Shown here: positions 464 through 20,839 of the stretch, one piece after another
Layout: every line of letters starts with the position of its first letter
How positions within the stretch are numbered: the stretch's first letter is position 1
Source of the DNA: a virus
IMG/VR virus record: IMGVR_UViG_3300030382_000696
Location: 12,022-33,644 of that record
Strand: one strand, 5' to 3'
DNA length: 21,623 nucleotides
Made by a program: the position numbers and the translations under genes
The notes under the pieces: generated by a model
Database searches by the model: none
The model's input: the letters and a program-made list of their open reading frames with translations, nothing else
Told to the model about the DNA's origin: nothing

Positions 464-645
464 AACGGTTCAAATAGTTCTTGTAAGTTTTTCTTGATAA
501 GCACATCAATCTGCGCTATCTCTTCATCTGTGAATGGTTCTAGTTTCACCACCTTCGCAGGTCCAAAGGAACTGGGTGGTGCAGCCTTACGGGAGAAACT
601 GAAGTTCTCCCCGGCTGCTGTCATTGCTTGGGTTGAAATGGTCAT
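460..645 (-). CDS. 61-aa conserved-looking hypothetical protein of the packaging cluster
   Basis: This 61-residue protein has a low-complexity N-terminal half containing a KAAPPSSFGPAKV stretch. Its acidic, helical C-terminal half includes FTDEEIAQIDVLIKKNLQELFEPL-type sequence, which looks like a short amphipathic helix suited to protein-protein contact. The start overlaps the upstream stop by one base (TAATG) and the stop overlaps the next start (ATGA), so it is tightly coupled on both sides. No domain is recognised. A role as a terminase partner is possible from position alone. Confidence 0.75.
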   Translation of the reverse strand: MTISTQAMTAAGENFSFSRKAAPPSSFGPAKVVKLEPFTDEEIAQIDVLIKKNLQELFEPL

Positions 646-1640
646 TAGTCTGCGCTGTAGTGGTTTTCTAGTAGGTCCGATTCTCTTAATGCCTCTTCAG
701 ATAGTTCTTTCTGAATAGATCTATACTGTTGACCTGCTGTAGTTGGAGTATGCTGTTTTATTTCTTCTATTCTGCCTATGACTTTTGATCTAGACCAGTT
801 TTCCGGTATAGCCTCTAGCATATCCATCTGCTCTACAGTCCAATCAGAGTCATAATGTAAAGATGGTTCGCCTTGATAATGTTGGTGCCATTGTTTTATA
901 TCCTTTCTCCAGTTGCTAGGCATCCCTGTTATATCTGAAACATGCTGATTCATACTACCATATCTAGCCCCCTTCTTTTTATTGTCAGGGCCGTACTCTA
1001 GTTTAGCAGTTCTACCAGTTGTAGCAGTAGTATCTAGTTTATTCACTTTTTGTTTAAGTGGATCACCTGAAGAAAGTAGATTCCGCTGATGTCCAGCATG
1101 CGTTTCTACTGGTTGTAGGCTTGCTGCTTTCTTAGTCCTAGCCCAGCCACTTCTAGCATTCTTTTTATATACTGGTATAAGTTCTTCAGGTATCCCCTGA
1201 CTTCTAAATTCTGATAGTAAATCATCGTCAGATGGTAAGGCTTCTCTAAACCTACGGTTTGCAGTATTAGCTCGTCGGTTAGCTCGTTTTTGAGCTTCTG
1301 TCAGTAATACTCTTTTACTTCTAGGTTTAGGCTGTGGTAGTTTTGTACTGATAGTTTTTAAACCTTGCCTTACCATACGCCTACCGATAGCTGTGTAAGG
1401 ATTTTTATCTAGTGCAAATTCTAAGACTGCTTGACCTATTTCTGCTGGATTATTGATGTCCGGTAGTTGTGATTTTATGGCATCGATAGTTAAATCTAGT
1501 ACTTGCTTACTTTGTATTTCAGCTTCTTTAGGGGTATTAAACCTAATACTCAAACCACTCTGCCTATCTGCAGGTCTACCATGCCATCGGTTCAGCTCTG
1601 ACTGTTCTTTAGCGTCTTCTCGCCATGTTCCTTGTGCCAT
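645..1640 (-). CDS. 331-aa hypothetical protein between small and large terminase; weak nuclease-like features
   Basis: I do not recognise this 331-residue, Arg/Lys-rich protein with confidence. The start at 1640 is preceded by a good ribosome site (AAGGAAG, 5 bases upstream). Residues about 105-140 are very basic (KRANRRANTANRRFREAL). The central part carries THAGHQRNLLSSGD, then a segment with RYGSMNQHVSDITGMPSNWRKDI. The HxGH pairing with later Asn/His residues loosely resembles an HNH-type nuclease core, but order and spacing are not convincing. It is separated from the preceding basic gene by 2 bases and coupled to the 61-aa gene by TAATG. The size and basic charge fit a nucleic-acid-binding packaging or maturation factor, as inference. 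Confidence 0.8.
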   Translation of the reverse strand: MAQGTWREDAKEQSELNRWHGRPADRQSGLSIRFNTPKEAEIQSKQVLDLTIDAIKSQLPDINNPAEIGQAVLEFALDKNPYTAIGRRMVRQGLKTISTKLPQPKPRSKRVLLTEAQKRANRRANTANRRFREALPSDDDLLSEFRSQGIPEELIPVYKKNARSGWARTKKAASLQPVETHAGHQRNLLSSGDPLKQKVNKLDTTATTGRTAKLEYGPDNKKKGARYGSMNQHVSDITGMPSNWRKDIKQWHQHYQGEPSLHYDSDWTVEQMDMLEAIPENWSRSKVIGRIEEIKQHTPTTAGQQYRSIQKELSEEALRESDLLENHYSAD

Positions 1641-1642
1641 AG

Positions 1643-1897
1643 CTACTTCCTTATCTTAAGCCCCTTACCAGGGGCATACTTCTTACCCTTTCTTGGTCTT
1701 GCTCTATTAGTAGAGGGACTCTCTAGTTTCGCCTTACCGGGACCGGTATGGGACGCATCCTTTCCGTCTCCGTTTCCGTAGGTACCAAGTTTTCGATTAG
1801 CTCTGTTAGCATCGACCCTAAGCTTCTTTCCCTTGGCTGTCTTATTATAGGCTTTTTGTTGTGCTTTCCTGTTGCCATTAGCGTACCTTGCTGCCAT
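1643..1897 (-). CDS. 84-aa basic protein with D-x-x-H and N-R signature, HNH-like candidate
   Basis: I chose the ATG at 1897 because it is preceded by a strong GGAGG site 4 bases upstream. A TTG at 1915 would add six residues but would place that site inside the gene. The 84-residue product is highly basic. It contains RANRKLGTYGNGDGKDASHT (about residues 33-52), then a short linker to ESPSTNRARPRKGKKYAPGK. Small phage proteins with a D-x-x-H near the middle and a conserved N-R near the end are often annotated as HNH-like or packaging-associated; that resemblance is by eye only. The start lies 20 bases inside the small terminase candidate gene. Confidence 0.78.
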   Translation of the reverse strand: MAARYANGNRKAQQKAYNKTAKGKKLRVDANRANRKLGTYGNGDGKDASHTGPGKAKLESPSTNRARPRKGKKYAPGKGLKIRK

Positions 1898-2126
1898 ACA
1901 GCCTCCGTTGGACAAGTTCTGGGTCGACTTTCGGCATCACTGATGCCAGTTTGTGTAGCGGATTGCCCTCGTAAGCGACACCACTAATATCATTCTTTAC
2001 TAGCCAATCACAAGCGGCTTTAAGTTCGTGCGCCGTAGCCTCACCACTCTTCACCCTTTTAAGAAACTCTTCTGTGACTAGATTGTGTAATTCGTTAAAT
2101 GTTTCCTCTGTTGCTTTTTTCACCAT
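1878..2126 (-). CDS. terS: Probable terminase small subunit (T7 gp18-like DNA maturase A)
   Basis: The small terminase recognises concatemeric phage DNA and recruits the large subunit. The 82-residue product is close to the length of T7 gp18 (89 aa). It is mostly helical: FNELHNLVTEEFLKRVKSG is followed by a short turn and ATAHELKAACDWLVKNDI, then a C-terminal PELVQRRLYG segment. The pattern of LH..v...l...i.sGea....l..a..wl..N.i is what I associate with podoviral small terminases. The start overlaps the preceding TGA stop and the end overlaps the next gene by 20 bases. Unlike T7, where gene 18 is followed closely by gene 19, four genes separate it from the large subunit here. The call is homology by eye and not certain. 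Confidence 0.72.
   Translation of the reverse strand: MVKKATEETFNELHNLVTEEFLKRVKSGEATAHELKAACDWLVKNDISGVAYEGNPLHKLASVMPKVDPELVQRRLYGSKVR
1902..1906 (-). promoter_or_regulatory. Shine-Dalgarno GGAGG that decides the 1897 start
   Basis: The minus strand reads CGGAGGCTGTATGG, giving a consensus GGAGG four bases before the ATG at 1897. It lies within the 3' end of the upstream small terminase candidate and is among the clearest ribosome sites in the window. Many other genes here depend on stop-start overlap instead. Confidence 0.7.
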
Positions 2127-2491
2127 AATGGTTTCTTACGTGGTTGTACTCTTAATTCGTCAGCAGGGGTCCAACCATGCCATTTTGGTTTAACAGGGCC
2201 TATCATTAAACCACCCCAGTTCTTAGGCTTATCACGTAAAGGGCTCATCGCTTGACCGTTTAGATAGGCCTCTACATTCGCTCTTGCCGCTTCTCTAGGA
2301 TGCTTTGCCCAAGCTTTATCATCAAATCGTCCTGGGTTTTTATTATAATCTGCGGCTGAATCTACAGAAGCTTTATACGCTTTATCAACCCAAGGTTTGT
2401 TATAATTTACAGCAGAATCAGATAATCCATGCTGTTTTTGCATTCTCTGGATCCATTCAATATCTGCTTGTGTAATTGTTTTCTTAGTCAT
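2120..2491 (-). CDS. 123-aa hypothetical protein upstream of the small terminase
   Basis: This 123-residue soluble protein is rich in Trp, Lys and Pro. It opens with MTKKTITQADIEWIQRMQKQ and ends with PADELRVQPRKKPLW. Tyr/Asn/Ala-rich repeats of the type VNYNKPW and ADYNKNPGRFDDKAW occur between residues 27 and 62. No membrane segment or signal peptide is visible. It overlaps the 53-aa gene by 8 bases upstream and the small terminase candidate by 7 bases downstream. I do not recognise its family. It is probably part of the packaging transcript. Confidence 0.8.
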   Translation of the reverse strand: MTKKTITQADIEWIQRMQKQHGLSDSAVNYNKPWVDKAYKASVDSAADYNKNPGRFDDKAWAKHPREAARANVEAYLNGQAMSPLRDKPKNWGGLMIGPVKPKWHGWTPADELRVQPRKKPLW

Positions 2492-2645
2492 TACGTTCCG
2501 GCTCTTTGCTCGGCTTTAGTTTGTTGAGTAGAGTTTGGACACTTTGAATGACGCTATTCTCCTTTAATGGAGACAAAGCAATCAGTTCTGATGCTAGGGC
2601 TACGATCACCCAAAATGCGGGCTCGGATAGAAATAATAGTTCCAT
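2484..2645 (-). CDS. 53-aa small membrane protein
   Basis: The open frame starts at ATG 2645, immediately after the TAA of the 27-aa gene, and ends 8 bases inside the next gene. The product begins MELLFLSEPAFWVIVALASE, a single hydrophobic helix of about 20 residues, followed by PLKENSVIQSVQTLLNKL and a charged tail (KPSKEPERND). This layout fits a one-pass inner membrane microprotein. Similar small hydrophobic proteins occur in cyanophages near structural and lysis genes, which is recollection rather than a search. A lysis-regulating or antiholin role is possible, but no motif proves it. Confidence 0.75.
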   Translation of the reverse strand: MELLFLSEPAFWVIVALASELIALSPLKENSVIQSVQTLLNKLKPSKEPERND

Positions 2646-2729
2646 TTACTTGGTGTCCTTCTTAGGTGCTTTCTTGGTCTCTTTCTTAGCTTTAGCTGCA
2701 GCTTCTCTCTGGTCTGATAGTGTACTCAT
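2646..2729 (-). CDS. 27-aa Lys/Ala-rich microprotein
   Basis: A 27-codon frame starts at ATG 2729, overlapping the stop of the upstream gene (ATGA), and ends with a TAA that abuts the next ATG at 2645. The product MSTLSDQREAAAKAKKETKK plus seven more residues is a highly charged, helix-forming peptide. The evidence for translation is its perfect fit between two coupled genes, because any other start would leave an unusual 80-base gap in a gapless cluster. No function can be assigned. It could also act simply as a coupling leader for the 53-aa membrane protein. Confidence 0.55.
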   Translation of the reverse strand: MSTLSDQREAAAKAKKETKKAPKKDTK

Positions 2730-3211
2730 GGTGTTCCTGTGGTTGTTTTGTTTACTAAGGCAATAGGTACGATGTCACTGCATAAATGCTCGACACGTGA
2801 CCCTGGTCGAAAGGTAAACCCTTTCTGTTGTATCTCAGCACATTTAAGTGCTCTAACTAGCTCATAGTCTAGTCGTAGCTTCTCTTCTTGACGTTTAGCT
2901 ATAGCTTTACATCTATCAATAGTACTCCAGTCCAAAGGGACCATAAAGTTAAGTTGTGCTCCCCACTGGTTACTTTTAACGTAAGCTTCATAGTCCATCG
3001 GTGTAGTGTCATTACCCATATAGAATGGGGATAATGTCATGGTAGGGCCGTTACATACGACCCCTCCTCCGTAGGACTGCCTAGACGGTGCTCCATTGTT
3101 CTGGAACTGTACCGCCTGGTTAGTCACGCTGCCGGTAACGTTTGATTCCGGTGCAGCTGTGTTATACACATCCTCTGCTCTCACAGGACTTAGCGCAGCT
3201 TCGCTGCTCAT
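2726..3211 (-). CDS. 161-aa conserved cyanophage-type protein, probably exported or virion-associated
   Basis: The ATG at 3211 overlaps the stop of the previous gene as TAATG. The frame is open upstream to 3556, but that region is the real coding frame of the previous gene and offers no internal start. The product contains NVTGSVTNQAVQFQNNGAPS, then SYGGGVVCNGPTMTLSPFYMG, DYEAYVKSNQWGAQLNFMVPLD and a C-terminal FTFRPGSRVEHLCSDIVPI. This set of segments is one I associate with a protein family common in marine cyanophages, usually called hypothetical. Four cysteines (VVCNG, DRCKA, ALKCAE, HLCSD) would suit disulfides in an exported protein. A signal-like hydrophobic stretch lies directly upstream in frame but without a start codon. 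Confidence 0.83.
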   Translation of the reverse strand: MSSEAALSPVRAEDVYNTAAPESNVTGSVTNQAVQFQNNGAPSRQSYGGGVVCNGPTMTLSPFYMGNDTTPMDYEAYVKSNQWGAQLNFMVPLDWSTIDRCKAIAKRQEEKLRLDYELVRALKCAEIQQKGFTFRPGSRVEHLCSDIVPIALVNKTTTGTP

Positions 3212-3567
3212 TACTGTGAGAAGACAGACAGCGAGGTAGTAGTAGAGTTTGTGGTGATAGTTCTGTCTATCTCTATTACTTCTACTATTCCGGCTGCTCT
3301 GGTTACAGTCTCTAGTTGATATTGATCCCCAGCTGTATGTACGGTGTAAGTAGTGTTGGAGTCTGTTATATCCCCACTTGGTACTACGTTGGTTCCTGAC
3401 CAACTGTTGTAAGCTCCACCATAGACGTCTGTATCTATGGCTTCTACGATTACTTGTGTAGTTACTGTGGTGGCTTGCATCGACCCCTGTGTGAAGGCCG
3501 GTGTTATCTGTTGTGCCCTTGCTATTGAGGGAATGAGTAGAAGTGGTAGTATCCATAGCTTAATCAT
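3211..3567 (-). CDS. 118-aa secreted protein with signal peptide, cyanophage hypothetical
   Basis: I chose ATG 3567 because AAAAGG lies 8 bases upstream and the protein then opens with a compact signal peptide, MIKLWILPLLLIPSIARA, with likely cleavage after ARA. ATG 3588, seven codons further out, is possible but has no ribosome site. The mature part is Thr/Ser/Val-rich and beta-like, with DVYGGAYNSWSGTNVVPSGD, a TVTRAAGIVEV segment and a Thr-rich end finishing SLSVFSQ. Function is unknown. The downstream gene is coupled by TAATG, and the two proteins may act together in the periplasm or on the particle. Confidence 0.8.
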   Translation of the reverse strand: MIKLWILPLLLIPSIARAQQITPAFTQGSMQATTVTTQVIVEAIDTDVYGGAYNSWSGTNVVPSGDITDSNTTYTVHTAGDQYQLETVTRAAGIVEVIEIDRTITTNSTTTSLSVFSQ

Positions 3568-3838
3568 CTTTTTTACCTTTTCTATCATTGGTAGGCTGAA
3601 TCCCGAACGTAGCTAATGTACCAGTGAAGATACTAGCTATGAAGGTTATATCCTTAGGTACTTGCTCACCTAATCCAGGTATTTCTACATAATTAAGACT
3701 GATGATGAATCCTGCCCAAATTACTACTCCTAGACGTACGAACGTAGATAGAATTGCTAACTGCTCTTCTTTATCATCCATACCGTCCTTCAGTTTAGTC
3801 AGGACATTTTTCTTCTGTGGCAGTTCCGCCTTTTCCAA
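3560..3838 (-). CDS. 92-aa two-helix membrane protein, class II holin candidate
   Basis: The 92-residue product has a charged N-terminus and two hydrophobic helices, at about residues 28-48 (FVRLGVVIWAGFIISL) and 64-80 (TFIASIFTGTLATFGI). These are separated by a short VEIPGLGEQVPKD loop, and the tail DRKGKKDD is strongly charged. This is the general topology of class II holins. In T7 the holin gene 17.5 lies between the tail fibre and the small terminase, the same relative position as here. No endolysin gene is in the window. The call is topology plus position; it could be another small phage membrane protein. The start lies 44 bases inside the proline-rich gene. Confidence 0.7.
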   Translation of the reverse strand: MEKAELPQKKNVLTKLKDGMDDKEEQLAILSTFVRLGVVIWAGFIISLNYVEIPGLGEQVPKDITFIASIFTGTLATFGIQPTNDRKGKKDD

Positions 3839-4247
3839 ATTTCTTCTGAATACGTTTTACAGCCTGCATGAATACAGGTTTGAAGACTTTAACCAGGTAG
3901 TTAAACATAGAAGTAGCAGTCAAAGTAGCGACCACAGAGACCGCAGCAGTTGTTGCTGCAGTCACTACAATCTCTTCCTTTGGAACTGGTATCTCTACAT
4001 CTGTCCAAGGTATAGTTATCTTCTTTACCTCAGGAGCTGCTTGCTCCTTTGGCTTGTCCGTTGTCTCTTCTTCTCCTTCTTTAGCTACACCTACTGGAGG
4101 TGAAAGGTTTTCTGGAGGAGTCACTAAAGGTAGATACTTAGGTAGCTCAGCTTTAGGGATAGAAAGTATAGGACGTGGGAGGATAGGGGCGGCAGGTAGT
4201 ATTTGTGTGGGTAGATTAATAGATGGAAAGATCGGTGGATCATCCAT
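3795..4247 (-). CDS. 150-aa proline-rich single-pass membrane protein, cyanophage hypothetical
   Basis: Residues 1-50 are very rich in Pro and Leu (PPIFPSINLPTQILPAAPIL). An acidic linker follows at 57-75, then a KKITIPWTDVEIPVPKEEIV segment. A hydrophobic helix spans about 93-117 (VVTAATTAAVSVVATLTATS), and a basic tail carries VKRIQKKFGKGG. The segment EIPVPKEEI followed by an Ala/Thr/Val helix is one I have seen in cyanophage proteins of unknown function. The long extended N-terminal part with a membrane helix and basic cytoplasmic end could span the periplasm, so a spanin-like or particle-anchoring role is conceivable but unproven. The start overlaps the previous stop as TAATG. Confidence 0.82.
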   Translation of the reverse strand: MDDPPIFPSINLPTQILPAAPILPRPILSIPKAELPKYLPLVTPPENLSPPVGVAKEGEEETTDKPKEQAAPEVKKITIPWTDVEIPVPKEEIVVTAATTAAVSVVATLTATSMFNYLVKVFKPVFMQAVKRIQKKFGKGGTATEEKCPD

Positions 4248-6787: not shown

Positions 6788-7536
6788 TACTTCACATCCA
6801 GTGAAGCCACAGCATGTACTTTATTAGCTGCTGCTACGATGTAGTCAATACGATCAACAGCAGCTCCAGTGGTTGTTAGCGTTGGTGCAGTCCCACCTGG
6901 GAAATCCCAGTCAGCATGGAAGGCAAGAGTTCTTGACCCTGTACCATCCTGTGTGACAAAGATAGAACCGCTTTGACCTGCAACCTGGTTAGATGGTTGT
7001 CCAAGAGTACGATTACCAGCTAGGGTTACACTATAGTTATTACTAGAGTTAAAATCAATAGCAATAGTAGCTCCATCTGTCAAAGCTGTGATAGTACCAC
7101 GTTGAGCGCCTCCCCAGGTTTGATCAGTAGCTAGTACTGCATCACCTACACCCTTAGCATTTAGCTGTGTTTGGATGTTAGACGTAACTCCATCTGTATA
7201 GTTTAGTTCAGCTGTAGTAGATGTTACCCCGTCTAAAAGGTTCAGTTCAGCTGTAGTAGATGTTACTCCATCTAATACACCTACTTCTGTTGCAGTTAGT
7301 AGGGCTAGTGCTGTAGCTGCTCCTGTTTGGCAGCTAGATAGTGCTGTTAGATCAGCATCAGAAGCCTGTTTACCAGTAACATCTGCTGCTGTAGCCAGAG
7401 GCACACCTCCAGCTGTACTACCGTCATGTACGACAGCTGTCTTCTTATCTGTATCTACAGTGACTTCACCAACTGCTCCTGTGAAGCTACTGTGTTGAGA
7501 GGTAGTACCCCTTCTTAGTTGTAATTTTTTAGCCAT
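6787..7536 (-). CDS. 249-aa second tail-fibre-like protein with Mtd-like N-terminal domain
   Basis: The N-terminal 45 residues, MAKKLQLRRGTTSQHSSFTG through a VGEVTVDTDKKTAVVHDGST segment, match the short domain found at the start of many phage tail fibres and of the Bordetella phage major tropism determinant. Residues about 79-125 contain two to three copies of a 13-residue repeat (DGVTSTTAELNLL). The C-terminal half is beta-rich, with WGGAQRGTITALTDGATIAI and GRTL/FHADWDFPGG-type sequence, and may form a trimeric fibre or knob. It overlaps both fibre-region neighbours by TAATG. It is likely assembled with the T7-type fibre as an attached tip, as inference. Confidence 0.83.
   Translation of the reverse strand: MAKKLQLRRGTTSQHSSFTGAVGEVTVDTDKKTAVVHDGSTAGGVPLATAADVTGKQASDADLTALSSCQTGAATALALLTATEVGVLDGVTSTTAELNLLDGVTSTTAELNYTDGVTSNIQTQLNAKGVGDAVLATDQTWGGAQRGTITALTDGATIAIDFNSSNNYSVTLAGNRTLGQPSNQVAGQSGSIFVTQDGTGSRTLAFHADWDFPGGTAPTLTTTGAAVDRIDYIVAAANKVHAVASLDVK
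7205..7282. repeat. 39-bp direct repeat, two units, coding for 13-aa fibre repeats
   Basis: Two copies starting at 7205 and 7244 share AGTTCAGCTGTAGTAGATGT and continue nearly identical through the unit. They encode DGVTSTTAELN repeats in the second fibre protein. A third, more diverged unit precedes them at protein level (DGVTSN). The near identity at DNA level suggests recent duplication or gene conversion. Confidence 0.8.
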
Positions 7537-9257
7537 TAGAGAGTTCCGAAGTCAATTTGTAAATTTGTACCACTGACAGTTCCTACTTCAGTGAGATTCT
7601 TATCGTTGCAGTCCAGTGCTGCATATAGTTCTGGGGTCTGGTCTTCTATTAAATTAGAGATACCAGTTGTAAGTGAGACCCAAGCACTGCTGTTATAGTA
7701 CTTTAAAATGTTAGCTGTTGAATCATACCAAAGATCTCCCTCATCCAAAGAAGATGAAGGTGCACTTGATGCAACTCTGTAAATATCAGAGAATGAGTTA
7801 ATATCATTAATGTTAGTAGCAACTGTAGTAATATCACTTCCTACCGTTTCAGTCGTTACACTCTCTGTAACTAGACCTAAGTCTTCTGCATAAGTAAGAT
7901 CACCTGCAACAATATTAACGTTAGCAATGTTATTAGCTACAGTAGTTACGTTAGCAGTTGAAGCTAGTTCTCTGTGGAAAGTATAGGTATGTAGGGTACT
8001 TGTAGTCTCTACTAGCATGCCGTTTCCAGCAATATAAGTAGTGCTATTAGCTAGACCGTTGATCGTGACAGTAGCGTTATTACCTACGTTACCGTTAGCG
8101 ATAGTGATTACTCCGCTACCGTTAGATGTTTGGTTACTAGCTAAAGCTTTAATACTAATCAGAGTACCAGTATTATCCTCAGGATCAGGGTTAGCATTAG
8201 GGAAAGAGGTCTCATTAGCAATAGGTACGAAAGCACCAAAATCTTCAACTAAAGTATCGATCCTAGAGTCAACAGCTTTTGCAGTTGGAATCAGTGTTTC
8301 ACTGTCTGACCAAGTCTCAGATCCTAACAGTACAGCAGCTGGATCAAGATGATTGAACTCTACTGCACTATTCTGTATAGCAGCTGTTCCTGTAACATTA
8401 CCTGAACCATCGAATCCTGCAGATGTATAAACTACATCACCAGTCATACCAATGGTTTTGGTTGCACTCAGCTTAGTAGCTTCATCCGCTGTTCCTGCTG
8501 TAGTAGCTTTACCTGATGTATCCTGGTTACCACCAGTGTTAACCCCTGGTAGGTTGATGTTAGCAGAACCATCAAAGGATACACCTCCAATAGTCCTAGC
8601 TGTAGTCAGTGTAGCTGCACTACCTGACGTATTCTGGTTACCAGTAGCATTGACTCCTGGTAGAGCAATATTAGCACTACCGTCAAAAGCTACCCCACCA
8701 ATAGTCTTTGAGGCAGCTAGTTTAGTAGCAGTATCAGCGTTACCTGTTAGGTCGCCTGTAACATCACCCGTGACATCACCCGTGACATCACCCGTGACAT
8801 CACCGGTTAAATCACCAGTAACGTCACCAGTCAATGCCTGACCAGTATGGAATGTGATAAGACCAGTCATAGTACCACCGGTCTTATCTAACTTACCATC
8901 TACAGTAGCAGCCCTATTCTCAGACTCCTGTGTAACATATAGGTTCTGTGTGAAGTTATCGTTCAAGTCAGAAGATCTAATGGCTGAACCCGCATAGAAG
9001 GTTGAAGCCATTGTTTCTGCAGAAGTATCTCTATAGATATGAATATTGTTTGTTCCTGAGACTGGTACTTGACCAGACACAAACTGAATTGATGTAACAG
9101 TAGGGAAGGTGTAATGTGTTGTTTCTGTTTTTGTAGCCCAAGCACCATTCTCGTAGACTTTAACTACGACGTCTGCTTTCTTTAAATATGGGAATGTGAA
9201 GTCGAAGGTAGTGACTTGATTGCCAGTACCATTCTTATAATGTTCAGTTGTAGCCAT
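7536..9257 (-). CDS. T7-type tail fibre protein (gp17-like)
   Basis: Residues 1-115 resemble the T7 gp17 N-terminal particle-attachment domain: an early TGNQVTTFDFTFPYLKKADV, then NIHIYRDTSAET, STFYAGSAIRSSDLNDNFTQNLYV. This domain fixes the fibre to the tail. From residue 125 the protein becomes modular: KTGGTMTGLITF, a run of TGDV/TGDL repeats (142-172), and two to three about 40-residue repeats around TIGGVAFDGSANIALPGVN. The remainder is Thr/Asn-rich and ends with a DEGDLWYDSTANILKYYNSS segment common in marine phage fibres. The gene starts 4 bases after the gp16-like gene, as gene 17 follows gene 16 in T7. The distal part differs from T7, as expected for a host-range protein. Confidence 0.92.
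   Translation of the reverse strand: MATTEHYKNGTGNQVTTFDFTFPYLKKADVVVKVYENGAWATKTETTHYTFPTVTSIQFVSGQVPVSGTNNIHIYRDTSAETMASTFYAGSAIRSSDLNDNFTQNLYVTQESENRAATVDGKLDKTGGTMTGLITFHTGQALTGDVTGDLTGDVTGDVTGDVTGDVTGDLTGNADTATKLAASKTIGGVAFDGSANIALPGVNATGNQNTSGSAATLTTARTIGGVSFDGSANINLPGVNTGGNQDTSGKATTAGTADEATKLSATKTIGMTGDVVYTSAGFDGSGNVTGTAAIQNSAVEFNHLDPAAVLLGSETWSDSETLIPTAKAVDSRIDTLVEDFGAFVPIANETSFPNANPDPEDNTGTLISIKALASNQTSNGSGVITIANGNVGNNATVTINGLANSTTYIAGNGMLVETTSTLHTYTFHRELASTANVTTVANNIANVNIVAGDLTYAEDLGLVTESVTTETVGSDITTVATNINDINSFSDIYRVASSAPSSSLDEGDLWYDSTANILKYYNSSAWVSLTTGISNLIEDQTPELYAALDCNDKNLTEVGTVSGTNLQIDFGTL
8749..8832. repeat. 12-bp tandem repeat, seven units, in the tail fibre gene
   Basis: Seven 12-base units run in frame; three consecutive units from 8761 to 8796 are identical (ACATCACCCGTG on the plus strand). 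They encode TGDV or TGDL steps in the fibre shaft. Exact identity of neighbouring units makes slippage likely, which would change shaft length by 4 residues per unit. Confidence 0.9.
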
Positions 9258-13416: not shown

Positions 13417-16311
13417 TTATAAGAACCCCCAGAATTTCTTAGGAGTGATGTTCATCATACCTGGATCTGGTTTTGTAGGCACAGTACCCCACCCTCGTTT
13501 GTTGTATACGCCTAAGCGTTGTTGGTAGAATTGTTTCAAAGCTTCTGCTGTTTTACCTCCTTGACCATAGAAACTAGATCTAGTACCTACTCGGCCTTGG
13601 TTATCAGGTCCGATTAGATTAGGGAATGAAGCCCATGTTGGTGCTAGTTTATCAATGTATTCATCTGTTAACCCATTTGCTCTCAAAGCTTCAGCGGTTA
13701 CACCCATATTATTTAAAGCAGCTTGAGCCATTGCATCCTGGCTTTCAGCGTTAAAGTAAGCTTTAGTTGGATCTAAACCAGCTTGCTTGGCATAGTTGAG
13801 TGCTTCTTTGTATTGATAAGCTCCCATAACTGCTGAACCTGTCTTAGCAGTATAACCATCATCCATGAACTTTGTCTGCCAATCATACATGGTACTTATA
13901 TCCCTCATTCCAAAATCTGTTGGATAACCTGCAGGTTTCTGGAAACCAGCCCAAGTGTTATAACCATCTTTACTGAATGTACCTTCAGCAAATCTAATAG
14001 TATCTTGCAATGCTAATTCTTCAGGGCTATATTTTGATGAATCATAATCTCTAAATCCAGTAGCGTCAGTACTAGTAGTGGTGGCTGACATACTATTTAA
14101 ACCAAGTGCAGACTGTACTGCTGGTCTCACGATTGGCTGGACCCTACCTTGAATAAGATCTCTACCTGTATATGAAGTATCAGTATAGGTAACACCACGT
14201 TGCCAGGCATCTACCATCTCTTGTCTTGTTGTAATACCACTGTCGATGCCTGGATCTTTACCAGTTGCTGCCCACAATGCTGCCTTAAGAACCTGACCTC
14301 TTGATACGTGCCGATCATATTTTTTAATTTCATTTGTCATGGCGACAATTTTAGGATGGTTTGTATACACATCTATGTCTGAGTTCATTAAAGGTCTGTT
14401 TGTGGTTTTCTGGTAGTTACTTAACTTTTGCCATGTATCTATAAGGGTGGTATTGAATTTCTGATTCTTTTCAAGCACTTCTTTGAAGCCGCTTTCGCTT
14501 CCGGTAAGGAAAGCATTGCGATCAACTGTCTCCCTAAATGATTTGTTGAACTCAGACGTACCTTGCTCTCTATGTTTTACACTTTCCCGAGTTAAGGTAC
14601 CTGTTAGCCCTGACCCCTCTATACCCCATTTCTGTTTGTCAACAGCTATGGCTGCTGCTTCTTTAAAATAATCAGTTATGTTCTCTTCAAAGTCAGGTGC
14701 CTCCCTGGCGAATCTTGCCAATTCCCTAAAAGTATCACGCCTTACTTCTTCTGTAATCTCAGGAGCTATTTCAACACCACCAGTATACTTTGGCCATTTT
14801 TCTTTAGCGCCGGCTTCAATAGCTGTATTCACCATAGATCTCTGCGACTCCATAGGTAACTGATAGTCAGGAAGCTTGGCTTGTTCTCCAGCTCTGTTTG
14901 GCTGCCCTGCTGCTCTTGCCTTAAGAGCTTTCTCCACCTTTGGAGTTAGGGGTCTACCACTTTCGCGAACTGCCGCAAGCGCTTGCTGCGCTTGCTCCCT
15001 TTCCATATTACCGATTTCTCGCACACGTTGATCTTCCTGCAGAGCCATGCCGCGGTTATGTTGTATAGTGGTATTCTGTTCTGCTTTTACTTTATCGCGG
15101 GTAGCTTCATCAATAAGTCTTAAGACTGAAGTCCTCTTAGTGGGATCTGCTGCAGCTGTGCCTGGGTTTTGTTTCGACAATAGGAGTCCCCACTCTCTAA
15201 GGTGATTACTACTAATAGCAGGATCATCTTTAGTGATTTCTATAATGTGTGCTACAGTTGCAACCATATCACCTTGAAAGTGTGCTGACCATGTATCAGT
15301 GAAGGCTACAAGGCCTTTTCCTGGTGGCAGGCCTTCGTATTCCCCTGTACCTGCTGCAATCTTACTTATATGATGAATCCCTATTTGGTTGAACTCTGCT
15401 CTTGCAGCCTTCTTATGGTTTGGCAGCGCCTCCGCAGCCATCTTATTATTAAACTTACCATTTGACTTCCTCAACCAAGCTTGCGATTCTGGAGTCAGTT
15501 TATCTAGATAACCTTCAGGGAGATTCTCCTTAGTAAGTCTATTTACTGAATTACTTACGGCTCTCTGGTAACCACGCCAGTCAGAACCATATGTATGTGA
15601 TTGTACATTAGTAGCTGTTTCGTATTGTGCATTTCTACTTGCTGTAGCTATAGCGTTAGACTGCCAAGCCTGTTGTATCTTACCGTCACCACTTGACCAT
15701 AAATTTAAAGCATCTACGGTACTTCTGACTTCTTCCGGTGTTCCGCCTGGATTAAGTCTGATTCCTAGTGCTTGCTTGAATTCTGCTTGAGTAGCAGCTG
15801 ATGAATTCGCTACAGCATCAGACCCCATCATCTTGGCGATGTTTACTCCTACTGCATCCCCTTGAGCCGATACATTATTTACTGCTTCCACTCCTGCCGC
15901 GGACTTAGCTGCAGCGGTCTCCGCCATCATGCCAGCACCGACCTGCACTAAGCTTAGGATGTGAGGTAGAGCTTTCTGTAGTACACTAGGTTCTGCCTCC
16001 TTCTGAGCTTCTTTAGCGTGACGGCGTTGCATAGCAGCCATCTCGCCTTCAAACTGACGCTGCTCTCCTTCATAGATGGCCTTATGATTCTTTAGAAAGA
16101 ACTGATTATTGTCATCTCTATTCTGCTGCTCAACTTTGAACTTATTATTTAAAGCACTTATATACTCTTGAGCATGATTTGCTTTAGTTTGAGCAGTTAA
16201 CTGAATATTCTGTACCTTCTCATTTGCGATCCGTAGATCTTCATTTACTTCTGTACTGATAGGGAGTATATTATAAGAACCATAATTACCCCCTTTCGCA
16301 TAACTCTTCAT
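13417..16311 (-). CDS. 964-aa internal virion protein (T7 gp15 position) with C-terminal lambda R-like lytic transglycosylase domain
   Basis: Position and size fit T7 gp15 (747 aa) plus an extra domain. Residues 1-760 are helical and Gln/Lys/Ala-rich, with a small hydrophobic patch near 115-130. Residues about 767-933 resemble the lambda R (GH104) lysozyme fold: DTIRFAEGTF with the likely catalytic Glu776, then GSAVMGAYQYKEALNYAKQAGLD, FNAESQDAMAQAALNNMGVT and IDKLAPTWASFP. In lambda R the equivalent order is SEGT, GAGRYQ, SPxSQDAVAL and IWASLP. The domain would cut peptidoglycan as DNA is ejected. A GGAAG site lies upstream of ATG 16311, in a 26-base gap, one of the larger spacers in the cluster. 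Confidence 0.88.
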   Translation of the reverse strand: MKSYAKGGNYGSYNILPISTEVNEDLRIANEKVQNIQLTAQTKANHAQEYISALNNKFKVEQQNRDDNNQFFLKNHKAIYEGEQRQFEGEMAAMQRRHAKEAQKEAEPSVLQKALPHILSLVQVGAGMMAETAAAKSAAGVEAVNNVSAQGDAVGVNIAKMMGSDAVANSSAATQAEFKQALGIRLNPGGTPEEVRSTVDALNLWSSGDGKIQQAWQSNAIATASRNAQYETATNVQSHTYGSDWRGYQRAVSNSVNRLTKENLPEGYLDKLTPESQAWLRKSNGKFNNKMAAEALPNHKKAARAEFNQIGIHHISKIAAGTGEYEGLPPGKGLVAFTDTWSAHFQGDMVATVAHIIEITKDDPAISSNHLREWGLLLSKQNPGTAAADPTKRTSVLRLIDEATRDKVKAEQNTTIQHNRGMALQEDQRVREIGNMEREQAQQALAAVRESGRPLTPKVEKALKARAAGQPNRAGEQAKLPDYQLPMESQRSMVNTAIEAGAKEKWPKYTGGVEIAPEITEEVRRDTFRELARFAREAPDFEENITDYFKEAAAIAVDKQKWGIEGSGLTGTLTRESVKHREQGTSEFNKSFRETVDRNAFLTGSESGFKEVLEKNQKFNTTLIDTWQKLSNYQKTTNRPLMNSDIDVYTNHPKIVAMTNEIKKYDRHVSRGQVLKAALWAATGKDPGIDSGITTRQEMVDAWQRGVTYTDTSYTGRDLIQGRVQPIVRPAVQSALGLNSMSATTTSTDATGFRDYDSSKYSPEELALQDTIRFAEGTFSKDGYNTWAGFQKPAGYPTDFGMRDISTMYDWQTKFMDDGYTAKTGSAVMGAYQYKEALNYAKQAGLDPTKAYFNAESQDAMAQAALNNMGVTAEALRANGLTDEYIDKLAPTWASFPNLIGPDNQGRVGTRSSFYGQGGKTAEALKQFYQQRLGVYNKRGWGTVPTKPDPGMMNITPKKFWGFL

Positions 16312-16337: not shown

Positions 16338-17654
16338 TTAAAAAAATGCATCAAATAGTCCACCAACTGCTGCACCAATAGGGATGCCTAGTGGTCCAAG
16401 CAATCCACTTGCCAGACCTATAGCACCTACAGTTCCACCTATAGCTCCAAACATTCCACCACTTGATCCAGAGGATTGAGCTGATGGTGGTGGTCCTACA
16501 CTAGCTCCCCATACCGGTGGTTCACCTTTCACAGGTAACATAGGATCAATGATTACAGGTTGTGGTAGTTCCATTGGTTTAGGTATTGGTAGTCCCCAAT
16601 CTGGTTGACTCATCCTAGACATGTCAGCTTTTATATTAGCTGAATATTCTTCATGAGTAATCTGTTGGATTCCCCGTTTCTGAGCACCGAAGATACTCAA
16701 TTCTGTTGCTAGTAGTTCTCGTTTCTGTACATCTCTCTTCTCTTCTAGTACATCTCTCTCTACAGTTACCTTACCAGAAGCGATGTCGTTGATCATCTCA
16801 TTATCTTTTAGAGTCTGATCAATACCAAACATTGCTATACTATAAGCAATATCAGTCCTATTCCTTTGATAGGCCTGTGCAGCTCTCTGCATTGCACCAG
16901 CATTAACCATAGCTTGATACTGCCTTGTTACAGACTTACCAGTTTGACCTCTAGCTGATACCTGACCCTCACCTCGCATCTGCTCAATCATTAGCTTCTG
17001 GCTTTCAGTAGATAGCTTACCACGTGCAGTCTCTCTTTCAGATGTTAGCTTCTCTTTCTGACGTTCAGCTTGCAGTTGTTTAGAGAGTCTACCAGCGTCT
17101 AATTCATCTTTTTGATATCCTAGGATCTCCCTTCCTTTCTGATAATCTAAGATGTTCATCTCTTCTTCGAAAGCAGCTTGTTGCTGTCTTTCATGAGTCT
17201 GAGCATTCATTGAGTCCACTGCATAGTTTGCATTGATCTCATTTATCCTAAGCTGATGACCATACAGAACTTCAGACTTATTGTATGCTGACATCTCAGC
17301 GTTATACTTTAACTCTTTAGCTGCAGCTGCATACATGTACTGCTCTTCCTGCATAGCCTTATTGTATCTATTCTGCTCCTCTTGGGCATGCCGTTGAGCT
17401 TGGTTCTGTAATATCCTATGATTATACTGACGCTGGGTTTGTTTCCAATCGTACTCATAAGTATGCGTGTTTTGCTCATGGGCCTTATCAGCGATCTCCT
17501 CATAGCGATCCTCTGGCCCACTTCCTCCTCCACCACCGAAGGATTCCAATCCCATACGAGCGGTGCAGAAGGTTTCTCTATTTATGTCTCCTGGAGGTCT
17601 TAGAGAATCATAGTTCTGATTCCCTATCTCTCCAAACCATTCAAAACTATCCAT
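16338..17654 (-). CDS. 438-aa internal virion protein (T7 gp14 position) with glycine-zipper C-terminus
   Basis: The gene sits where T7 gene 14 lies, but the product is about twice the length of T7 gp14 (196 aa). Residues about 50-330 are charged, Gln-rich and probably a long coiled coil (AEMSAYNKSEVLYGHQLRIN, QLQAERQKEKLTSERE). A Pro-rich linker follows (PIPKPMELPQPVIIDPMLPV). The C-terminus after SSGSSGG is strongly hydrophobic with repeated Gly spacing (GAIGGTVGAIGLASGLLGPL and IPIGAAVGGLFDAFF). T7 gp14 is ejected and forms an outer membrane channel, so a membrane-inserting tail fits. The annotated start overlaps the previous gene by 8 bases; an internal Met (MGLESF, residue 34) is an alternative. 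Confidence 0.85.
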   Translation of the reverse strand: MDSFEWFGEIGNQNYDSLRPPGDINRETFCTARMGLESFGGGGGSGPEDRYEEIADKAHEQNTHTYEYDWKQTQRQYNHRILQNQAQRHAQEEQNRYNKAMQEEQYMYAAAAKELKYNAEMSAYNKSEVLYGHQLRINEINANYAVDSMNAQTHERQQQAAFEEEMNILDYQKGREILGYQKDELDAGRLSKQLQAERQKEKLTSERETARGKLSTESQKLMIEQMRGEGQVSARGQTGKSVTRQYQAMVNAGAMQRAAQAYQRNRTDIAYSIAMFGIDQTLKDNEMINDIASGKVTVERDVLEEKRDVQKRELLATELSIFGAQKRGIQQITHEEYSANIKADMSRMSQPDWGLPIPKPMELPQPVIIDPMLPVKGEPPVWGASVGPPPSAQSSGSSGGMFGAIGGTVGAIGLASGLLGPLGIPIGAAVGGLFDAFF

Positions 17655-18111
17655 GTTTCTTAGGCCTTCTCCTACGTTTACGTTGTTGTTTTGGTTTAAT
17701 TTGCTTTGATATTACTGAGTACTCATGCTCCCAGTTTAGCTTCCTTGTTAGACCTTTCCTGGCCCAAGCTTCTAAATGAGAACATTCAGCAGTTCTAGCA
17801 AAGTCTTCTATAATGTGTAGGTGTTTTATCCAAGTATCAAAGTCTGAGTCCTGGTCTACAGTCCAGACTACAATACGTAGTATACGCTTCCTTGGGTAAT
17901 TAACTACTTCTGCTACCAGTACACTCTTGATTTCGTCATTCTCCACTCCTACCCAAAGGAATTCCTTTTCATTAAGGATCATCTTCAGGATATCAGAGGA
18001 GTGAAGTTCACCAATAGTATGGTCTAGAGCCTCATCTATTAGAGGTCTAACTCTAGGCCATATATCAGGTACGAATTCTGGTTTGACTAGTAGTACTTCT
18101 TGGGTGGTCAT
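17647..18111 (-). CDS. 154-aa GNAT-like acetyltransferase-fold protein (T7 gp13 position)
   Basis: The protein shows a GNAT-like order: an N-terminal helix pair (FVPDIWPRVRPLIDEALDHT), a beta hairpin FLWVGVENDEIKSVLVAEVV, strand RILRIVVWTV, a helix FDTWIKHLHIIEDFARTAEC, then LEAWARKGLTRKLNWEHEYSVISKQI. It lacks an obvious Q/RxxGxG/A acetyl-CoA loop, so it may be a structural relative rather than an active enzyme. Small proteins of this kind sit at the T7 gene 13 position, whose product is needed for virion maturation. The C-terminal 17 residues are very basic (KQQRKRRRRPKKHG), suggesting nucleic acid contact. It starts 4 bases after the gp12-like gene and overlaps the next by 8. Confidence 0.75.
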   Translation of the reverse strand: MTTQEVLLVKPEFVPDIWPRVRPLIDEALDHTIGELHSSDILKMILNEKEFLWVGVENDEIKSVLVAEVVNYPRKRILRIVVWTVDQDSDFDTWIKHLHIIEDFARTAECSHLEAWARKGLTRKLNWEHEYSVISKQIKPKQQRKRRRRPKKHG

Positions 18112-18115
18112 TGTG

Positions 18116-20839
18116 TTAAGTTCTTCTATAGTATCGTGGTGAGTATTGTCCCTCCCACATCATTGATGTAAGTGAGACAGGAAATGGTGAGTTACTAAAA
18201 ACTCTTAAGTCAAAGTTATCTGTACGTTGATGAACGGGTACAGTGAATACTGCTGACTCTTCTAGTGGTACATCGTCTAGTAAATATTCTCCAGCTTCTT
18301 TCACTGGTTGCACATCGTACCAAGTGTCAGTAGTAATAACTACTGTTTCAGCAGGTTTAGCTAGTGTAGTACCTGATGCATCTACTGCACCCATAGGTAC
18401 ATTACCAGCAGTAAACGTAACCGTAGTTCTACCACTAGCGTGTGCTACATTGTAAGTTGAAGTAGGTGCTATAGCCCCATCTATCTTAACTATAATATTA
18501 TCATCTGGATCTAGTTCAGATTGTGTAGTAAATGCAGCTGTACCGTTAGTACCGTTAGTGCTATCACCTGTGAACTCAGATGAAACTCCTGTATATCCTT
18601 TACTCTTCAGCTTAAACCCAATGACGCTGGATAGCCCTACTGCAAACTTCATTCTAGCAATGGTTAATGCAGCAGTGTAATCTAATAGAGTACCTTCTGG
18701 GTTCTGTTTGAAGTATGTCTTAGGTAGCTCTACATCGTAGTTAAACTTGTAACCTACATAAACATCTGTTGCAATAGACTCCCAATCCTCAGTAGGTATT
18801 TTAAAGTAAGGACCCGTACCATCAGAGCCGCGTTCAGGACTTAAGGTGAATCCTGATACAGCACCTTTTAAGATTACTACAGGAGTTAATCCAGTGATAT
18901 CTGCATAAGGTAGGTACACTCTGGAATGGAAATCAGTTGGAGTTGCTGTATTATAATCTACAGAATCTGCTTGAGCATACATATCCATATAAGGATTGAT
19001 CTTTGTACCATCATTAGTAACAACGATAGCATCATCTGGTGACTGACTCAAGTCAGCACTAAGTAAGGAGTACACACCATTGGTTACAGTTACCGACCAC
19101 ATAGTATCAGATTCAATCTCTGAAAACTCTACGGTACCGGGTAGCTGCCATTTAAACCACGCTTGCATGACCACTTGATCACCTGCAACGTGTGTCTTAT
19201 GTAGATATATTGTATCCGAACCTCCATAAAGTGCTATCATGGAGTTCTGTGAATTAGCTATTAAAGTTGTCACAGAGTTAGGTAACCATTCAGAGACTAC
19301 CTTACCAATGTCAAAGATGAGAGGGTTCTCTTCATTACCTCTGGTTGTCATACCAAAGACACGAGTGAAGTTAGATGTCTTACTGATGAATTTAATACTC
19401 AGTCCATCGTCTACTGGAGTTATAACTGAATCCATCTCATAGTTAGAGATGCCACGTATAACTGCTGTAGATGGTGTGAGTATCTTAGCATCAGAGAACA
19501 TCACAAACTGCTGCTTCTCGCTGAACAGGATTAAGCCTTGTGCTGTCTGCAGTACACTGTGTAGTTTAGTAGGTCTAGTACTCGAACAACTCATATCAAT
19601 AGGATCTGAGTCTATCGGTGTGAGTACTGATATACCGTAGAAGTTATAGAAACTACCACTGCTACTCATTATCACATTGTCTTCAGATAAAGCACCTAGC
19701 CTGTTGTTGTGGAAGAAGGTCTGTTGTATCTTCTTACCTACAAAACTTGGGTCAGGGTTTGAAGTAGCATCACCTGCTAACCTGTCAGACCATGCTACCT
19801 TAGAGAATGTGAATGCATTTAAAGTTGTATTCTGTAGCTCATGTGGCATTGTAGAATCATCTAGTCCATTAGATACATCCCATCCTACAGTCTCTCCCCA
19901 GTAACCATTACCACTTGTACCTAAGAGGGGTGTGAACTTAACATAGTATGGGTCAGCTGCACCAGTACTATCAGATCTAATCATGACCTTTCGGTCTGTT
20001 ATTGATTGTGCTGGTAGATTAGCTAAGACACTAACCTCCTCCCTGAATGCTGTTATATTCTCACCGCCTTGGTCGTCTGTTACTGTGACTTCAATATCAG
20101 ATGATGAATGAACCAGCTCTAATGAGGATTCAAGTGCTGTAACAGTGAGGTTTGAAATAGATGCAGCATCGATGAGCTGCTTCAACGCATTACTGTTACC
20201 GTTAGTTTCTAAGATTGATTTAGCTGTGTTAGTTAATACTGTATAACCACTATCTTCTGCTGCAATAGTAGTATGTGTAAATGTTTGAGGTGAGCCACTA
20301 CCTACTTTAATTGTAACCGCATAGGCTGTAGCATACTTAACCTGTTTTAGGAATACAGTAGCATTACGTTTGTCAATTGCACTAGACTTAGTTGAATCTG
20401 CAGCAACTGCCTTAGTCCTGTTGGTAATGATAGTCGTATCTTGTACAGTTAGGACGTCATAGTTATCACGGGTTGTGTCCAGGTAAGCTATAGGGCTACC
20501 AGTATAAGTTACTGCTGCCTCTGTACCATCTGTATTCCAAATCCTGATTGGATCCGATGATGCAAATGCATTGTCTTTGTCTAGTATACATCCTACATAT
20601 GATTCACCTGAGTCCCTTCTAATGAAGAACCACTTAGCATTAACTAAGTCAGGTGCGTTAGCGCTGGAGGATGTATGTATTGATTTAATCCATTTGAATC
20701 CAGGTCTCTTTGTTAACCCAAAGGTTGGATCAGGTAGTGCATTTATACACTCCCTGACTTGACCCGGCATCTTCTTATTATCTGTTTGTTTAGATACCCC
20801 ACCTAAGTAGTTGGGTACTGTCTGTGTTACTGCTGCCAT
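18116..20839 (-). CDS. Tail tubular protein B (T7 gp12-like nozzle)
   Basis: Tail tubular protein B forms the distal nozzle of the short tail through which DNA leaves. The 907-residue product is somewhat longer than T7 gp12 (794 aa). The opening is diagnostic: VTQTVPNYLGGVSKQTDNKK, GQVRECINALPDPTFGLTKR, PGFKWI. Later parts agree, with TFFHNNRLGALSEDNVIMSS, GLILFSEKQQFVMFSD, FKWQLPGTVEFSEIESDTMW and the C-terminal FSNSPFPVSLTSMMWEGQYSPR. It is beta-rich throughout. It overlaps the tail tube A stop by one base (TAATG), as expected for a linked pair in the same particle. Confidence 0.95.
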   Translation of the reverse strand: MAAVTQTVPNYLGGVSKQTDNKKMPGQVRECINALPDPTFGLTKRPGFKWIKSIHTSSSANAPDLVNAKWFFIRRDSGESYVGCILDKDNAFASSDPIRIWNTDGTEAAVTYTGSPIAYLDTTRDNYDVLTVQDTTIITNRTKAVAADSTKSSAIDKRNATVFLKQVKYATAYAVTIKVGSGSPQTFTHTTIAAEDSGYTVLTNTAKSILETNGNSNALKQLIDAASISNLTVTALESSLELVHSSSDIEVTVTDDQGGENITAFREEVSVLANLPAQSITDRKVMIRSDSTGAADPYYVKFTPLLGTSGNGYWGETVGWDVSNGLDDSTMPHELQNTTLNAFTFSKVAWSDRLAGDATSNPDPSFVGKKIQQTFFHNNRLGALSEDNVIMSSSGSFYNFYGISVLTPIDSDPIDMSCSSTRPTKLHSVLQTAQGLILFSEKQQFVMFSDAKILTPSTAVIRGISNYEMDSVITPVDDGLSIKFISKTSNFTRVFGMTTRGNEENPLIFDIGKVVSEWLPNSVTTLIANSQNSMIALYGGSDTIYLHKTHVAGDQVVMQAWFKWQLPGTVEFSEIESDTMWSVTVTNGVYSLLSADLSQSPDDAIVVTNDGTKINPYMDMYAQADSVDYNTATPTDFHSRVYLPYADITGLTPVVILKGAVSGFTLSPERGSDGTGPYFKIPTEDWESIATDVYVGYKFNYDVELPKTYFKQNPEGTLLDYTAALTIARMKFAVGLSSVIGFKLKSKGYTGVSSEFTGDSTNGTNGTAAFTTQSELDPDDNIIVKIDGAIAPTSTYNVAHASGRTTVTFTAGNVPMGAVDASGTTLAKPAETVVITTDTWYDVQPVKEAGEYLLDDVPLEESAVFTVPVHQRTDNFDLRVFSNSPFPVSLTSMMWEGQYSPRYYRRT

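Follow-up and report, generated by a model that had tools for sequence, protein, structure and literature searches.

Analysis of the window suggests that the gp15-position ejection protein carries a C-terminal GH104 lytic-transglycosylase domain of ~185 residues, and that this domain is one of several unrelated hydrolases found in a shared slot. This reading best explains the data and is assigned a probability of roughly 85%, the catalytic activity being predicted. It would turn an apparent oddity into a rule: a T7-like branch that carries its wall-cutting tool on the presumed tunnel protein, with the type of tool varying between relatives.

Here, the window is the whole 21,623-nucleotide stretch of DNA analysed, positions 12022-33644 of the 33,644-base IMG/VR virus record IMGVR_UViG_3300030382_000696. 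By gene content, the phage appears to be a cyanobacteria-type T7-like podovirus. Reading of the ORFs outside the window reveals T7-type RNA polymerase, helicase/primase, methyltransferase-like and terminase genes, and gp11/gp12-type tail proteins inside it match PHROG_446 and 457. No capsid or portal gene is seen among the ORFs of the record, which is therefore incomplete. The best named relatives of the gp16-position protein belong to Synechococcus and Prochlorococcus podoviruses, with S-CBP3 at the top (46%); these relatives and the gene content point to a cyanobacterial host.

The order of genes (Table 1) is: gp12-like, a 154-aa ORF, gp14-position, gp15, gp16 and tail fibre. Matches to PHROG_457, 20153 and 6651 occur in that order and are followed by tail-fibre PHROGs, giving the T7-type gp14-gp15-gp16 arrangement, and the gp16-position ORF begins directly past the gp15 stop codon. 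Over the gp15 gene, promoter-like matches stay inside the shuffle range and no terminator was found. The 154-aa ORF (window 17647-18111), which lies between the gp12-type and gp14-position genes, has a counterpart in contig L001 (2430-2891), and in both the C-terminal tail is very basic (KPKQQRKRRRRPKKHG). The tail-fibre protein (window 7536-9257) contains a run of TGDV repeats at about residues 140-175. Further along, the minus-strand ORFs 2726-3556 and 3211-3588 overlap and match different PHROGs (848/1755 vs 650); the overlap within 2726-3588 reflects either a wrong start of the longer ORF or a true gene overlap.

Table 1. Coordinates of the ejection-protein region in the window, with the basis of each assignment.
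Feature	Position	Strand	Basis or remark
gp12-like	18116-20839		PHROG_457
gp14-position protein, 438 aa	16338..17654	(-)	PHROG_20153, E=4e-27, function unknown; by position only
gp15-position ejection protein, 964 aa	13417..16311	(-)	Gene order
N-terminal gp15, residues 2-215	15667..16308	(-)	Only part alignable to L001, 37% identity
GH104 (lambda-lysozyme-like) domain, residues ~752-935	13507..14058	(-)	Window-free HMM (envelope 752-935) and family profile
Codon of predicted catalytic Glu776 (AEGT)	13984..13986	(-)	Alignment with lambda R Glu19
gp16-position ejection protein, 1384 aa	9262..13416	(-)	PHROG_6651 'internal virion protein', E=5e-220, whole length

The sequence-only reading had placed ordered lambda R motifs in C-terminal residues 767-933 of the gp15-position protein. 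That location holds, and both the coordinates (window 14013-13513) and the motifs proved exact: AEGT at 775-778, containing Glu776; MGAYQY at 829-834; AESQDAMA at 855-862; and PTWASFP at 891-897. A direct comparison with lambda R gives weak similarity (blastp 0.013; phmmer --max 0.0017), so the proof of homology is transitive, through the gp15 of contig L102, and profile-based. The window domain matches the L102 C-terminal domain at 33% over 179 aa (E=3e-16), and the L102 domain matches lambda R at 37% over 153 aa (E=1e-24). An alignment of the window with L102 was needed to find related loci: it recovered seventeen loci with the domain, while searches with gp15 or the domain alone as query found none and tblastn of whole gp15 in phages gave no match. 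An HMM built from eight of these 17 loci, with the window excluded, scores the window domain at 70 bits (E=1e-21) and also recovers lambda R, with E=3e-29. The family profile that includes the window matches lambda lysozyme (PDB 1am7 and 3d3d) at 1e-24 and the hub protein of Anabaena phage A-1(L) at 5e-12. The assignment to the lambda R (GH104) type, also made from sequence alone, is thus borne out by a significant profile match of the gp15 C-terminal region to lambda lysozyme. Glu776 falls in the same alignment column as lambda R Glu19, and this column is invariant across nine aligned sequences. A chance match of short motifs is ruled out by this held-out profile and by shuffling; in phmmer against lambda R the domain scores 9.4 bits, and 200 shuffles reach a maximum of 3.8.

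Neither Pfam nor NCBIfam labels the window domain. As they do not label lambda R itself either, the missing annotation represents a gap in these libraries, and the analysis brings to notice GH104 modules that both leave unlabelled. The A-1(L) hub (8kea), in which residues 56-265 form the lysozyme domain, is the best single-sequence PDB match of the window domain (E=1.8e-5). It is also the sole convincing Foldseek neighbour of the AlphaFold model, with probability 1.00 but E=0.016 and TM 0.49, obtained from a weak model (pLDDT 62); the active-site cleft is therefore a putative one.

The T7 virion enzyme had been described in the sequence-only reading as a different fold at the N-terminus of gp16. 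The placement stands, as Pfam SLT is found at the start of T7 gp16; "different fold" is too strong. SLT/GH23 enzymes and lambda lysozyme belong to a common lysozyme-like superfamily, and both are lytic transglycosylases. The accompanying claim that the gp16-position protein of the window has no such motif agrees with every search made: its Pfam scan gives no significant match, PDB searches return no SLT, hhalign with an SLT profile containing T7 gp16 gives a probability of 0.2%, and Pfam SLT finds nothing in the whole record. The AlphaFold model of the gp16 N-terminus is uninformative (pLDDT 42). Across 19 whole phage records, Pfam SLT identifies three sites only: one at the start of T7 gp16, and one inside the gp15-position ORF of each of S-CBP3 and S-CBP4. 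A two-sequence SLT HMM was discarded for this census because it missed even T7 gp16. With SLT absent from gp16 in all 17 cyanopodoviruses examined, gp16-borne SLT appears to be a T7 feature rather than a universal one.

In the cyanopodoviruses examined, a hydrolase usually sits at the gp15 C-terminus. A Pfam survey of the gp15-position proteins of 17 named cyanopodoviruses finds: glucosaminidase in S-CBP1, DSL-LC07 and S-SRP01; SLT in S-CBP3 and S-CBP4; M23 in S-CBP4 and S-SRP01; and Hydrolase_2 (SleB-type) in KBS-P-1A, with S-B28 below the cut-off. Phage_lysozyme2 (tail lysozyme) is present below the cut-off in P60, whose domain is common to Syn5 (1e-38) and S-CBP42 (4e-40), and the S-RIP1 protein has a domain of GH104 type. 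No recognised hydrolase is found in the gp15-position proteins of P-SSP7, P-SSP2, P-GSP1 and 9515-10a. From IMG/VR, 61 gp15/gp16 pairs were extracted. Among 24 diverse gp15 proteins from this source, nine contain glucosaminidase, L102 ends in GH104, L001 ends in an M23-like domain (matching the M23 region of S-CBP4 at 6e-8), and in several nothing is recognised. Motifs suggest that L103 has an SLT-like end and L104 and L107 M15-like ones, but these ends did not pass Pfam. C-terminal GH104 recurs on gp15-position-like proteins of 880-957 aa that a large ORF follows (L102, L115-L119, L120/L121 and L129/L130). The presence of several unrelated wall hydrolases at the same C-terminal site suggests that the shared feature is the slot, not the GH104 domain itself.

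Comparisons between close relatives, drawn from contigs picked by similarity rather than as an unbiased sample, fit a C-terminal exchange slot. The gp16 of the window is 79% identical to that of L001 over the 429 residues held by L001, and the two gp15 proteins end in different hydrolases (GH104 vs M23-like). The gp15 body past the alignable N-terminal part (window 14092-15666, residues ~216-740) has no detectable similarity to L001 gp15, for all the likeness of the adjoining gp16 N-termini, so replacement or divergence in this pair reaches far beyond the hydrolase. In L102, L104 and L107, where gp16 is 52-58% identical, gp15 can be aligned to about residue 740, beyond which the GH104 domain of L102 is replaced by other ends in L104 and L107. 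Separately, the gp15 of L061 (4746-7016) has lost ~240 residues: it has 757 aa, and relatives whose gp16 is 86% identical have about 997.

On balance, these patterns favour a general form of the slot: the cyanopodovirus gp15 C-terminus would be a place where at least six unrelated hydrolases (GH104, SLT, glucosaminidase, SleB-type Hydrolase_2, phage tail lysozyme, M23 and perhaps M15-like) swap between relatives, possibly tuned to host peptidoglycan, with gp16 hydrolase-free. A literature search found no paper describing such a slot for cyanophages. Under this proposal, the choice of hydrolase against host peptidoglycan chemistry becomes testable.

A true relocation, in which the hydrolase left gp16 in this lineage and a lambda R endolysin domain was recruited onto gp15, would account for the SLT of T7 gp16 having no equivalent in the window phage and for the domain belonging to the lambda R family. 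It appears unlikely. The 17 cyanopodovirus relatives are without gp16 SLT and most carry a gp15 hydrolase, which makes the state older than the window phage. The domain swap special to this phage that the sequence-only reading proposed is therefore not upheld: a gp15 hydrolase is usual among the cyanopodoviruses surveyed, and K1E/K1-5 and PhiM1 are known to have one as well. Its second element, recruitment of an endolysin-type domain, fares no better. The nearest annotated matches are Elbi (5e-6), the S-CAM4/ACG-2014j "late control gene D protein" (5e-6) and the A-1(L) hub (2e-4), and their gene context is one of baseplate or hub genes. A tree of 17 domains does not join the window domain to lambda R, though it is poorly resolved, with weak support and long branches. 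As the nearest relatives are thus another gp15 (L102) and virion-associated lysozymes of cyanophages, endolysin recruitment is not supported. GH104-type domains also occur in cyanophage baseplate or hub proteins (L134 1432-4029 and L132 2710-5409; ACG-2014j and A-1(L)), pointing to a widespread virion lysozyme module in cyanobacterial phages.

Loss of catalysis, leaving the lysozyme-like domain as a structural or peptidoglycan-binding part only, is rather improbable. It would fit the long branch of the window domain (1.94 changes per column) and an insertion of ~18 residues relative to its relatives. It would also fit the A-1(L) hub, for which activity is reported for the endoglucanase and peptidase domains, not for the related lysozyme domain (PMC10966104); activity of the window domain consequently cannot be assumed. 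Against inactivity, the domain keeps its predicted catalytic Glu, and none of the EGT, GAYQ, QD and WAS-P motifs is lost. A dual use, in which the gp15 domain doubles as the lysis enzyme since no separate endolysin is seen, draws on the 33.6-kb record having no second GH104 and on eight phage endolysins/lysozymes finding no significant match in it, but is very improbable given the incomplete record, several late ORFs of unknown function at 645-4247 (PHROG_1755, 848, 650, 2714, 9426) and the fusion of the domain to a large structural protein.

A gp15-borne GH104 enzyme would be functionally sensible, and the variability of the slot is of more interest than relocation. In T7, gp14, gp15 and gp16 exit the head in order, and gp15 forms the periplasmic tunnel (PMC8954989). 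By analogy, the gp15-position protein would most likely be packed in the virion core, be ejected into the periplasm and form the DNA tunnel there; its C-terminal domains could then cut glycan strands locally, allowing the tunnel to pass the peptidoglycan. Carried by gp15, a hydrolase would be at work ahead of the arrival of gp16 and would be present in as many copies as gp15. The statement of the sequence-only reading that the placement changes which protein first reaches the cell wall is likewise conjectural. The window gp15 has no significant match to T7 gp15, so the gp15 assignment and the tunnel role are based on synteny, position and size.

The location and principle of a gp15-borne lysozyme are already known. 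PhiKMV gp36 occupies the gp15 position and bears its lysozyme at the C-terminus. Lysozymes are listed in SP6 gp36, K1-5 gp38 and PhiKMV gp36 (PMC5380687); according to a review, the gp15 homologues of K1E/K1-5 carry lysozyme activity, and the hydrolase domain is able to move from gp16 onto gp15 (PMC8954989). In PhiM1, the octameric ejection protein contains a lysozyme-like domain at 718-903 that is seen in the virion by cryo-EM (PMC11440229). This protein (gp42) occupies the gp15 position, and like the K1E/K1-5 homologues it resembles the window in having a lysozyme or lysozyme-like domain there. Classification of the PhiM1 domain as GH104 was rejected, as the GH104 profile gives no match, and PhiM1 differs further in that an internal endolysin-like domain is also present in its gp16-type protein. 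T7 shares gene order and the presumed ejection role with the window, but carries SLT at the N-terminus of gp16 and none on gp15.

At the level of the domain, lambda R (1am7, 3d3d) has the family, catalytic Glu and motif order in common with the window, but is a free lysis enzyme, not virion-borne, and is without the extra insertion. The lysozyme domain of the A-1(L) hub is likewise a cyanophage virion component, but belongs to a contractile-tail hub and lies near its N-terminus. A literature search for GH104 with "internal virion protein" found no paper, and GH104 in this gp15 place seems undescribed in the literature searched, although S-RIP1 already has it there. The protein of S-RIP1, a cultured Synechococcus phage (YP_007676440.1, PHROG_90), resembles that of the window in its C-terminal GH104-type domain and its place upstream of a gp16-type internal virion protein; it differs in having 787 aa, a remainder that is not significantly similar, and a record as hypothetical protein. 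It matches PHROG_90 "endolysin" from end to end, a profile that lambda R also matches, at positions 651-811.
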